64,000 bases of DNA from Achromobacter insolitus (GTDB taxonomy: Bacteria; Pseudomonadota; Gammaproteobacteria; Burkholderiales; Burkholderiaceae_B). The notes under the pieces are model-generated. The model did no database searches. It had not been told where the DNA came from and worked only from the letters and a program-made list of their open reading frames with translations. The DNA lies in contig NZ_NJIF01000014.1 in the NCBI RefSeq assembly GCF_002209555.1, forward strand, positions 1 through 64,000, in the 5' to 3' direction. Numbering within the stretch: the stretch's first letter is position 1; every line of letters starts with the position of its first letter. The translations under genes and the position numbers were made by a program. Below, piece by piece: positions 3,076 through 5,962 of the stretch.

Positions 3076-5190
3076 TTGACGCAGCGGCAATGGTGGCGTA
3101 CGGGCGTGGGGCATTGGGCCGTGCATGGCCTGCTGGCGTCGTTTCCGGCTGGGACCGCCTGGGCGCAGGAAGCGGAACCGCTTTTGCCTGCCGTCGTTGT
3201 GACGGGCACGCGCCTGGACACCACGGTGCTGGATACTCCGGCCTCGGTCAACGTGGTGGAGGGCGCGGCCATGCGCCTGAACCAGCCGGGCATCAACCTG
3301 TCCGAGGGCTTGGCCGGCGTGCCGGGCCTGCAGATCCAGAACCGCCAGAACTACGCCCAGGATCTGCAGATATCCAGCCGCGGCTTTGGCGCCCGCTCCA
3401 CTTTCGGCGTGCGCGGCGTGCGCCTGTACGTGGACGGCATTCCGGCCACCATGCCGGACGGACAGGGGCAGACGTCGAACATCGATATCGGGTCCATCGG
3501 CCATGTCGAAGTGCTGCGCGGACCGTTTTCCGCGCTGTACGGCAATTCCTCGGGCGGCGTGATCCAGGTGTTTACCGAGGATGGCGCGGCGCCGCCCTCG
3601 CTCGCGACCAGCGGCTGGGGCGGCAGCTACGGCACCTGGCGTTACGGCGCCCGCGCCCACGGCGCAGCCGGCGCGCTGGACTACGTGCTGGACCTGACCC
3701 GTTTCACCACCGACGGCTATCGCGACCACAGCGCCGCCCGCAAGAACCTGGGCAATGCCAAGCTCGGCCTGCAACTGGACGACGCCAGCCGCCTGACCAT
3801 CGTGGCCAACAGCGTGGACCTCAAGGCGCAGGATCCGCTGGGTCTGACCTACCAGCAGTTCCAGGACGATCCGCGCGCGGCTCCACTGGCCCGGCAGTAC
3901 GACACCCGCAAGACGGTCAGGCAGACCCAGGGCGGCGCGGTCTACGAGCGCCAGGTGGACGGCCGCAATACCTTGCGCGTGATGGTTTATTACGGCCAGC
4001 GGGACACTACGCAATACCAGGCCATTCCCCCGGCCGCGCAGATGGCGCCCACCCAGGCTGGCGGGGTGATAGACCTGAAGCGTCAGTACGGCGGCGCCGA
4101 TCTGCGCTGGACCTCCGAGCAGACGATGGCGGGCCGGCCATTGACGTTGATCGGCGGCTTTTCCTATGACTCCATGCGCGAAGACCGCAAGGGCTACCAG
4201 AACTACACGGGTGAGGGCGCCAGCCGGCAACTGGGCGTGCAGGGCGCGCTGCGGCGCGACGAGACCAATACCGTCTACAACGCGGATCCTTACCTGCAGG
4301 CATCCTGGCAGGTGACGGAGCGCTGGACGCTGGATGCCGGCCTGCGTTACAGCACGGTCGGCTTCGATTCCAACGATCATTACATTGCGGCCGGCAATGT
4401 CGACGACAGTGGCGACGCGCGCTATCGCAAGGCCTTGCCGGTCGCGGCCGTCCGTTATGCGCCGAATCCGGATCTGAGCTTTTACGCGTCGTATGGGCGG
4501 GGATTCGAGACGCCGACGCTCAACGAGATCTCTTACCGTCCCGGCGGCCAGCCCGGCCTGAACTTCGGGCTGGCGCCGGCGCTCAGCACCAATCTGGAGG
4601 CGGGCGTGAAGGCGAACCTGGCGGGCGGCTTGCTGACGGCCGCGGTGTTCCATACCGGCACCGACGACGAGATCGTGTCCGCGGGCAGCTCCGGCGGACG
4701 GACCACGTACCAGAACGCCGGCCGCACGCGGCGCGATGGCGTGGAGCTGGGCTGGTCCGGCGAGTTCGCCAGACATGGGCGCGCGCAACTCTCCTACACC
4801 TGGCTGAATGCGCGGTATGCCGACGACGGGCCAGGCGATATCCGCGCCGGCAACAAGATCCCCGGCATCGCGCGCCAGGCAGCCTATGCCTCGCTGGCCT
4901 GGGCGCCGCCGGAGGGTTGGCAGGCATCGATGGAAGGGCGTTTTCTCAGCAAGATCTACGTGAACGATGCCAACGACGGCGACGCGCCTGCCTACTTCGT
5001 GGCGGCACTTGGCGCGGGGTATGTATTGAAGGCGGGGGCTTGGGAGCTGAACGCCTACGGGCGTGTAGACAACCTGTTCGACCGGCGCTACGCCGGATCC
5101 GTGATCGTCAACGAGACCAACGGACGCTACTACGAACCCGCTGCCGGGCGCAGCCTGGGAGCGGGCGTGGGCGCGACATACCGGTTCTGA
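3076..5190 (+). CDS. TonB-dependent outer membrane receptor, substrate unknown
   Basis: 704 residues. The start is a TTG placed 5 bases after a perfect AGGAGG (3065-3070). Signal peptide ends near residue 33 (GTAWA-QEA). A TonB-box-like stretch (LPAVVVTGT) precedes the plug domain (about 45-165; QISSRGFGARSTFGVRGVRL, VEVLRGPFSALYGNSSGG). A 22-strand barrel follows and ends with the usual aromatic residue (ATYRF). There is no N-terminal signalling domain and no sigma/anti-sigma pair nearby, so it is not a surface-signalling transducer. No Fur box was seen in the short upstream gap. It converges on the NifQ-like gene (stops 10 bases apart), which raises but does not prove a metal other than iron as substrate. 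Confidence 0.9.
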   Translation: MTQRQWWRTGVGHWAVHGLLASFPAGTAWAQEAEPLLPAVVVTGTRLDTTVLDTPASVNVVEGAAMRLNQPGINLSEGLAGVPGLQIQNRQNYAQDLQISSRGFGARSTFGVRGVRLYVDGIPATMPDGQGQTSNIDIGSIGHVEVLRGPFSALYGNSSGGVIQVFTEDGAAPPSLATSGWGGSYGTWRYGARAHGAAGALDYVLDLTRFTTDGYRDHSAARKNLGNAKLGLQLDDASRLTIVANSVDLKAQDPLGLTYQQFQDDPRAAPLARQYDTRKTVRQTQGGAVYERQVDGRNTLRVMVYYGQRDTTQYQAIPPAAQMAPTQAGGVIDLKRQYGGADLRWTSEQTMAGRPLTLIGGFSYDSMREDRKGYQNYTGEGASRQLGVQGALRRDETNTVYNADPYLQASWQVTERWTLDAGLRYSTVGFDSNDHYIAAGNVDDSGDARYRKALPVAAVRYAPNPDLSFYASYGRGFETPTLNEISYRPGGQPGLNFGLAPALSTNLEAGVKANLAGGLLTAAVFHTGTDDEIVSAGSSGGRTTYQNAGRTRRDGVELGWSGEFARHGRAQLSYTWLNARYADDGPGDIRAGNKIPGIARQAAYASLAWAPPEGWQASMEGRFLSKIYVNDANDGDAPAYFVAALGAGYVLKAGAWELNAYGRVDNLFDRRYAGSVIVNETNGRYYEPAAGRSLGAGVGATYRF

Positions 5191-5199
5191 GAACGGTCC

Positions 5200-5832
5200 T
5201 CAGTCCGGCATGTCCGAATAGCAGAAACCATAGTCTTCGCAGGCCGGGCAGCCCGGCGCGGCGGTTGGCGGCAGGCCCGCCTGCTCGCAGGCGGAATAGG
5301 CCAGGAACTGCTTCCACCGCAGGTTGCGCACATTGCGCACCATCAGGCCGGGATAGTGCCGTGCCAGCAGGAAGGTCACGTCCTCGCGGCCCGACAGGCC
5401 CAGGTCCCGCCACAGATGGTCGGGCCGGAGACAGGCATGCGCCAGCACGCTGGTGACCCAGGGTGTCGTGCCCGCGCCGGGCGCTGCCCAGGTGTCCAGC
5501 AGCGCGCGCATCAGGCGCATGAATTCCGTCTGGGCCGTATCTGCGCGGCGGGCCGGGTAGATGGCGGCCTGCTCGCGCAGGCTCGCCAACGCCGGGTCGT
5601 GGCCCGTCAGTGCGCCGGGGAAGAGGCACGCCGCGAGGCTTTCCAGTTCGCGCGGCGCCAGGCCGCAGCGGCCCAGGTCGCCGCCGGCCAGGCTCTTGCC
5701 GATGACGGTGGCGAAGAAGCCTGCGTCCGGATGGCCCGGTGGGGCATGGCGCAGCAGCGCGCCGCAGAACCGCGAGGCGAGGTCGGTCCTGTCGGCCGGG
5801 GTTGCTACGGGAGCGAGGGAGACGGCGTTCAT
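5200..5832 (-). CDS. NifQ-like molybdenum-handling protein
   Basis: 210 residues. NifQ is an iron-sulphur protein that passes molybdenum to cofactor synthesis in diazotrophs. The C-terminal half matches the family: WRDLGLSGREDVTFLLARHYP, LRWKQFLAYSAC, then the cysteine cluster C182, C195, C198 and C204 (CPACEDYGFC). The last spacings (Cx2C, Cx5C) are the classical ones, but the first is 12 residues rather than the usual 4. I chose the ATG at 5832, not in-frame starts further upstream, because a ModE-type operator occupies 5877-5900 and must lie outside the coding region. No nif gene is present in the window, so the function here is probably not nitrogenase assembly. Confidence 0.8.
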   Translation of the reverse strand: MNAVSLAPVATPADRTDLASRFCGALLRHAPPGHPDAGFFATVIGKSLAGGDLGRCGLAPRELESLAACLFPGALTGHDPALASLREQAAIYPARRADTAQTEFMRLMRALLDTWAAPGAGTTPWVTSVLAHACLRPDHLWRDLGLSGREDVTFLLARHYPGLMVRNVRNLRWKQFLAYSACEQAGLPPTAAPGCPACEDYGFCYSDMPD

Positions 5833-5856
5833 GGTCGGAAGGCGGTGGTTGCCGAT

Positions 5857-5872
5857 GATTAAACTGTTAATC
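5857..5872. promoter_or_regulatory. Perfect GATTAA-ACTG-TTAATC dyad before the NifQ-like gene
   Basis: A 6-base perfect inverted repeat sits between the ModE-type box and the start codon, 25 bases from the ATG. It may be a second operator or part of the promoter; no regulator can be named. Confidence 0.35.
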
Positions 5873-5876
5873 AAAT

Positions 5877-5900
5877 CGTTATGGTGTTGAATATATAACG
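5877..5900. promoter_or_regulatory. ModE-type molybdate-responsive operator
   Basis: CGTTAT, 12 bases, ATAACG: the same half-sites and the same 24-base span as the E. coli modA ModE site (CGTTAT-N12-ATAACG). It lies 45 bases upstream of the NifQ-like start codon, a normal place for a ModE repressor or activator site. Its partner gene is itself a molybdenum protein, which makes a chance match less likely. Confidence 0.7.
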
Positions 5901-5962
5901 AAACCCGCGCTGCGTCCGCGTTGTCTGGCATGGTTCCGGGGCCGCGCGATCGGCGTATCGCC

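Follow-up and report, generated by a model that had tools for sequence, protein, structure and literature searches.

The window analysed here, a stretch of 64,000 nucleotides from Achromobacter insolitus (contig NZ_NJIF01000014.1, positions 1 to 64,000), carries a gene of the NifQ family behind a predicted ModE-type operator, in a genome in which no nifD match was found. Taken as a whole, these data are best explained by a branch of NifQ proteins in the Burkholderiales which handles molybdenum independently of nitrogenase, and we consider this explanation to be probable. A molybdate-linked function that does not depend on nitrogenase is very likely, while a donor mechanism for the window protein is proposed tentatively, with the balance slightly against it. 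We infer both the regulation and the biochemical role of this three-cysteine kind of NifQ. The features discussed below are as follows.

3076-5190, downstream of nifQ and convergent with it: TonB-dependent receptor, PqqU-like.
5200-5832, minus strand: three-cysteine NifQ-family gene, 210 aa (Pfam PF04891; alignment with 36 relatives).
5221-5250, minus strand: codons of C195-x2-C198-x5-C204, the remaining cluster cysteines (alignments A2 and A3).
5263-5265, minus strand: Thr190 codon, where the C-x4-C-x2-C-x5-C of nitrogenase-linked NifQ has its first cysteine.
5857-5872, minus strand: A/T-rich imperfect inverted repeat, reading GATTAACAGTTTAATC towards nifQ (footprint of 40 loci).
5877-5900, minus strand: predicted ModE-type operator, reading CGTTATATATTCAACACCATAACG towards nifQ and ending 44 bases before its start codon.

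The nifQ gene starts with the ATG at 5832-5830 and stops at 5200. A longer frame is possible from an ATG at 5931; the start at 5832 is the one common to most orthologues. The longer frame, of 243 aa, was scored with the Pfam NifQ profile PF04891 and reached 109.4 bits (cut-off 27), which bears out the NifQ homology put forward in the preliminary description of this DNA. Only this profile matched the protein, no NCBIfam model doing so, and a search of the PDB returned no convincing relative (best E 0.16). The gene was also said to lie outside any nif context, and this holds: upstream and in the same direction is a cyo-type oxidase operon (CyoD by Pfam, the other genes named by eye), on the other side is the TonB receptor gene, and nifD was not found in the genome. 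The receptor gave 959 bits with the PqqU model, below its cut-off of 1200. A convergent receptor of this type was present near nifQ in 17 of the 17 named Achromobacter loci (among the best 80 of 539), and no molybdenum link was evident for it in these loci.

NifQ proteins linked to nitrogenase, that is those from nifD-positive genomes, mostly end in C-x7-C-x4-C-x2-C-x5-C. The C-x4-C-x2-C-x5-C motif is absent from the window protein, where Thr190 replaces the first cysteine. The remaining C195, C198 and C204 are invariant in both alignments (16 rows in A2, 37 rows in A3), and so are 29 further positions in A3. Read literally, the window motif is C-x12-C-x2-C-x5-C, and the preliminary description had taken the altered spacing of the first cysteine (12 instead of 4) as a possible mark of a separate subgroup. 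However, no more than 28 of the 40 genus members have a cysteine at the position 13 residues before the C-x2-C pair (the others having F in 5, R in 4, H in 2 and Y in 1), which rules out the altered spacing as a new motif; the same cysteine is absent in the three-cysteine proteins read from other genera. Since Thr190 stands at the canonical place of the first cysteine, the defining change is the loss of this residue and not a changed spacing.

The subgroup itself was confirmed by a tally of the cysteines in 148 fetched proteins out of 165 distinct NifQ matches; the 17 matches left out, all from the order sample, comprise 16 from nifD-positive genomes and one short fragment from a nifD-negative genome (G345). 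Among the 80 proteins from nifD-positive genomes, 79 have the opening cysteine of C-x4-C, the 80th being a second copy without the motif (L189), whereas 61 of the 68 from nifD-negative genomes keep the last three cysteines only (40 from Achromobacter, 21 from others). The other seven divide into 2 with all four cysteines and 5 without a cysteine motif. The cysteine test thus separates both kinds of NifQ well, though imperfectly; two nifD-negative draft genomes, G622 and G653, carry four-cysteine NifQ. Proteins without a cysteine motif were seen at L126, L127, L128, L130 and L189, and the L126 gene lies directly before modE.

NifQ was present in 49 of 268 genomes of the family sample, 70 of 399 of the order sample and 51 of 397 of the phylum sample. 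Outside the genus, 51 of the 78 NifQ-positive family and order genomes had a nifD match (48 over the cut-off), as did 43 of the 44 further NifQ-positive genomes of the phylum sample (41 over the cut-off). Genomes were called nifD-positive on any match of the nifD model at E 0.001, so that G602 owes its place to a single weak match (E 7.8e-4), G718 and G846 to NifE-like or partial matches only. Within the family, order and phylum samples, three-cysteine proteins were confined to the Burkholderiales, the order to which the window belongs. With the cysteine region excluded, a quick tree was computed from 43 three-cysteine rows plus 40 of the 80 rows with four cysteines; it placed the three-cysteine rows in two clades of 34 and 9 rows (SH-aLRT 99 each), and a single three-cysteine clade was not rejected by the tree test (AU p 0.378). 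The two kinds can also occur together. In the 47 genomes of the named loci (best 80 of 539), each identified through its own three-cysteine NifQ, a second NifQ (144-178 bits) was present in 8, all Paraburkholderia, and in each of the 8 it has all five cysteines. This coexistence fits two jobs for the two proteins.

The operator was described beforehand as CGTTAT-N12-ATAACG, which we take to be the consensus of a ModE site, lying 45 bases upstream of nifQ; the dyad is there, at a distance of 44 bases. It is the single match in the window, with none in 100 dinucleotide shuffles, and the outer-arm pattern without mismatch occurs once in the whole genome of 6,443,829 bases (6.44 Mb), at 5877-5900. 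When the full dyad was scored on 16 arm positions (the outer arms plus inner ATAT arms), four sites in the genome had at most 3 mismatches, and the two best, with 2 mismatches each, precede nifQ and modA. The modA site (C23:140404-140427, 14/16) ends 33 bases before modA and sits in the modE/modABC locus, so that a dyad at the mod genes of the same genome, proposed as a check, was indeed found. The modE gene, whose absence would have counted against the proposal, was found as well (TIGR00637, 100.2 bits, plus Mop domains). A backward control pattern was commoner than the dyad at loose thresholds, with 126 places against 52 for the outer arms at up to 2 mismatches and 9 against 4 for all arms at up to 3 mismatches in the genome; therefore only the best sites count, and loose matches were not used. 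Three other candidates were set aside: C11:923156, which has one outer-arm mismatch, is beside a Fur-like gene (by eye) and is without the inner ATAT arms, and the two 3-mismatch sites, one of which is beside a PadR-like gene and the other inside a long reading frame (by eye).

The arrangement is conserved across Achromobacter. NifQ was found in 40 of 43 genomes of the genus, a dyad of at least 12/16 precedes nifQ in 40 of 40, and a modE match is present in 43 of 43 (42 over the cut-off, G036 having it in two pieces below the cut-off). With E up to 0.001 as the threshold, nifD was found in none of the 43 genomes, the source genome included; the search would probably also have revealed other nitrogenases, because the nifD model also catches NifE-like paralogues elsewhere. 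The dyads scored 16 in 7 loci, 15 in 12, 14 in 16, 13 in 2 and 12 in 3, and for two of the three loci at 12/16 the score of 12 was also reached by 4 and 3 of 100 shuffles. In the footprint of the 40 loci anchored on the dyad, eleven columns are identical in all of them, and the near half of the dyad, CGTTATATATT, is kept better than the far half; of the 42 columns between -45 and -4, 38 stay below 0.6 bit, and no -35 box was evident. The distance from dyad to nifQ start is mostly 28-47 bases, with 28 in two loci and 16 in one, the start being set by script at the farthest ATG within 200 bases where one exists, so that single distances (e.g. -10 and 61) may be wrong. A modA dyad at 14/16 was present in 18 of 20 stretches of the genus, the remaining two being one cut by a contig end and one without a site, and it ends 29-42 bases before the script start in 12 of the 18 stretches with a site, much as at nifQ. 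Conservation of the dyad, which the preliminary description had named as a check, is thus seen both at nifQ and at modA. Three genomes of the genus, all 99-100% complete although one is in 1430 contigs, are without nifQ and retain modE and the modA operator, which makes nifQ dispensable.

Two side observations concern these loci. The repeat at 5857-5872, between operator and start codon, is partly conserved in many of the 40 Achromobacter loci, and could be the site of another regulator or the 5' end of the transcript. In G036 the modE matches are two adjoining pieces in different frames (G036:C1:4327842-4328095), so the gene may be broken or carry a sequencing error; the nifQ dyad of this genome (L135) scores 15/16.

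Outside Achromobacter, the link with molybdenum appears in the gene context. The order modA-modB-modC-nifQ-modE was found at L115 (by Pfam) and at L119 and L120 (by eye), L121 has nifQ-modE-modA with a 16/16 dyad overlapping the script's nifQ start, and L122 and L124 have nifQ beside a full modE. These six contexts (L115, L119-L122, L124) belong to the smaller three-cysteine clade. A wider view comes from the named loci, which are the best 80 of 539 (63 from other genera, 17 from Achromobacter); all 80 are three-cysteine, a count biased towards the query by the choice of the best 80. Within 6 kb, 51 of the 63 non-Achromobacter loci have a molybdenum gene, by which we mean Mop, molybdopterin-domain, ModE-like, Wtp-like or mod, and the other 12 have none near nifQ (again among the best 80 of 539). 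By type, the same 63 loci have a ModE-like gene in 41, a molybdopterin-domain gene in 27, Mop in 24 and a WtpA-like gene in 22. ModE-like sites of at least 13/16 numbered 114 in these 63 loci, spread over 44 of them, against 0.1 in shuffles, but they cannot be counted as independent, since many of these loci are closely related. The gene of a TOBE protein overlaps the three-cysteine nifQ by 4 bases in Burkholderia multivorans, and the L129 gene encodes a fusion of ModD with a cysteine-free NifQ domain (L129:1922-3349; TIGR01334 239.7 bits, cut-off 178.85). Mop genes also adjoin nifQ in Burkholderia. Mop/molbindin and ModD both belong to Pfam families different from that of NifQ, the former being a neighbour only and the latter only a fusion partner. 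The gene context in other members of the order supports the general molybdenum trafficking or storage role suggested in the preliminary description, as far as such a function may be read from sequence.

Other observations were made in the same neighbourhoods. The ModE-like proteins of 41 of the 63 loci (among the best 80 of 539) consist of the DNA-binding part only, as for the N-terminal-only protein at L222:6614-7093 and at like places in the others; at L222, the one locus scanned, the ModE-like and Wtp-like proteins fall below the NCBIfam cut-offs. In some of these clusters the molybdenum-binding TOBE part is a separate Mop protein, and the pair is perhaps a split ModE. A DUF2325 protein accompanies nifQ and the ModE-like gene at L222:7117-8469 and at like places in 40 of the 63 loci (among the best 80 of 539), with ModE-like dyads nearby, and is a candidate for a new member of the molybdenum regulon. 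The fusion gene at L129 is followed by the gene of a TOBE/Mop protein.

The association has its exceptions. The Pigmentiphaga-type loci (L073, L106-L111) have no dyad in 7 of 7, and the contexts at L106, L110 and L238 hold no molybdenum genes. Outside the genus, 19 of the 21 three-cysteine loci from nifD-negative genomes are without a dyad directly before nifQ, a count in which some of the 19 genes lie inside operons and only the stretch directly before nifQ was read. In the opposite direction, the megaplasmid of Cupriavidus metallidurans CH34, presumably a non-fixer, carries a four-cysteine NifQ (L294:4965-5594) with a 14/16 dyad (L294:4894-4917) 47 bases upstream, so that four-cysteine proteins, too, may be under ModE-type control. 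The plasmid records of Cupriavidus include NifE in 2 and NifQ in 4, of which 2 are C. metallidurans; among the matches listed, these counts, drawn from plasmid records only, fit an absence of nifE from the C. metallidurans megaplasmid. The PLSDB gene table gives no gene for the CH34 nifQ stretch.

From these elements a working model can be drawn for Achromobacter, in which we infer the binding of ModE, the direction of control (from geometry), the type of cluster and the receiver. ModE loaded with molybdate would probably sit on the dyad overlapping the nifQ promoter and switch nifQ off; it would also occupy the matching dyad before modABC, and both would be derepressed together when molybdenum is low. 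The spacing between dyad and start, mostly 28-47 bases, suggests an operator placed on the promoter and therefore repression, which is also the simpler reading because 28 and 16 bases leave too little room for a promoter between an activator site and the start. NifQ would most likely hold an iron-sulphur cluster on C195, C198 and C204, take up the molybdate delivered by ModABC, and then buffer the molybdenum or pass it on. Three cysteines could leave a cluster with one open corner for molybdenum. Since there is no nitrogenase, FeMo-co cannot be the receiver, and molybdenum-cofactor assembly is the likely one. When a nifQ gene seems to be co-regulated with molybdate uptake although nitrogenase is absent, the best reading is that its product handles molybdenum for the other needs of the cell.

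Other readings of the same data have to be weighed. The loss of the first cluster cysteine, the three genomes of the genus without nifQ and the relatives without the whole cysteine motif (L126-L128) are what one would see if the protein were a relic of a nif cluster that outlived nitrogen fixation, its cysteine site decayed and its function gone. Yet the three cysteines and 29 other positions are invariant over the 37 rows of A3, none of the 40 NifQ matches of the genus has an internal stop, the operator stands at all 40 nifQ genes, relatives are placed in mod operons, and 8 Paraburkholderia genomes keep the three-cysteine protein beside a four-cysteine copy; we regard a relic as very improbable. 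That the molybdenum link in Achromobacter is a coincidence and the dyad is bound by some other regulator seems to us more improbable still. Matches to a consensus are no proof of binding, and looser sites are no commoner than the backward control, but the two best sites of the genome precede modA and nifQ, and the modA site lies 29-42 bases before the start (12 of 18), much like that of nifQ (mostly 28-47).

Two further readings keep the link with molybdenum and assign the protein another part. NifQ could be a storage or detoxifying buffer rather than a donor, binding molybdenum for later use with no defined receiver, as the molbindin-like Mop neighbours and the resemblance of its operator to that of the uptake genes might suggest; a store is nevertheless expected when molybdate is plentiful, and the geometry of the operator would point to expression when it is scarce, which makes this reading unlikely, if one accepts such a geometrical argument. 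It could also be a regulatory partner that carries a molybdenum or Fe-S signal for ModE-type regulators, an idea most plausible for Burkholderia and its relatives, in which the ModE-like protein encoded near nifQ is DNA-binding only and the molybdenum-binding TOBE/Mop part is separate. N-terminal-only ModE-like genes near nifQ (41 of 63 loci) and Mop genes (24 of 63, both among the best 80 of 539) agree with it, as does nifQ next to a full modE at L115, L121, L122 and L124, and by eye at L119 and L120. In Achromobacter, however, ModE is full, with TOBE domains, and modE is far from nifQ; moreover, neighbourhood alone is no proof of contact, and we hold such a partnership to be quite unlikely. 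The preferred explanation thus remains a molybdenum-handling protein independent of nitrogenase. An extension of it, which we find doubtful, gives the Burkholderiales without nitrogenase their own route of Mo-Fe-S trafficking or sensing, in which a ModE-controlled three-cysteine NifQ would assemble a Mo-Fe-S cluster with an open corner, and either the assembly of the molybdenum cofactor or split ModE/Mop regulators would receive the metal or the signal from it. On that view, serving nitrogenase would be a single specialised role within a molybdenum-handling family of greater age or breadth.

Comparison with known systems places the window protein more precisely. In diazotrophs such as Azotobacter vinelandii and Klebsiella, NifQ is the molybdenum donor for FeMo-co. 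On an Fe-S precursor it builds a [Mo-Fe3-S4] group, and it supplies molybdenum during the assembly of nitrogenase (PMC11605450). The window protein belongs to the same Pfam family and shares the HLW-x-D and WK stretches and C-x2-C-x5-C. In contrast to these proteins, it is without the first cluster cysteine, its genome is without a nifD match, its gene has a ModE-type operator, and its relatives are in a molybdenum-uptake and not a nif context. Of the features of a nitrogenase donor, it therefore has the Pfam profile and lacks the four-cysteine motif and a nitrogenase in the genome. In Herbaspirillum seropedicae, nifQ and modABC form one operon in the nif region of a nitrogen fixer (PMC3912193). 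L115, L119 and L120 likewise join nifQ with modABC, but their genomes are without a nifD match and the operons include modE. The source genome resembles a known ModE regulon in its full ModE, its modABC and the dyad before modA, and differs from it by a NifQ-family member without nitrogenase. No such regulon member was found in the literature among the matches listed, a weak negative as subscription journals are mostly uncovered. What was found is only the nifQ-modABC operon of a fixer (PMC3912193) and Burkholderia NifQ taken as a sign of fixation (PMC8483353, PMC3937718); in the latter two, NifQ hits, which may be of either cysteine type, are counted among the signs of nitrogen fixation.

The three-cysteine gene of B. 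multivorans (L293:6917-7525, NZ_CP020399.1) bears the public name "nitrogen fixation protein NifQ" and the matching GO term, nitrogen fixation, which is likely an over-annotation. A three-cysteine NifQ can thus carry a nitrogen-fixation label, and annotations of this kind call for caution.

To our knowledge, it is not established for most bacteria by which route molybdate travels from its importer into the molybdenum cofactor. The NifQ relative described here, preceded by a molybdate operator in cells that lack nitrogenase, readily suggests itself as a candidate intracellular molybdenum carrier. Taken together, these results suggest that the NifQ family handles molybdenum for the rest of the cell too, beyond nitrogenase.
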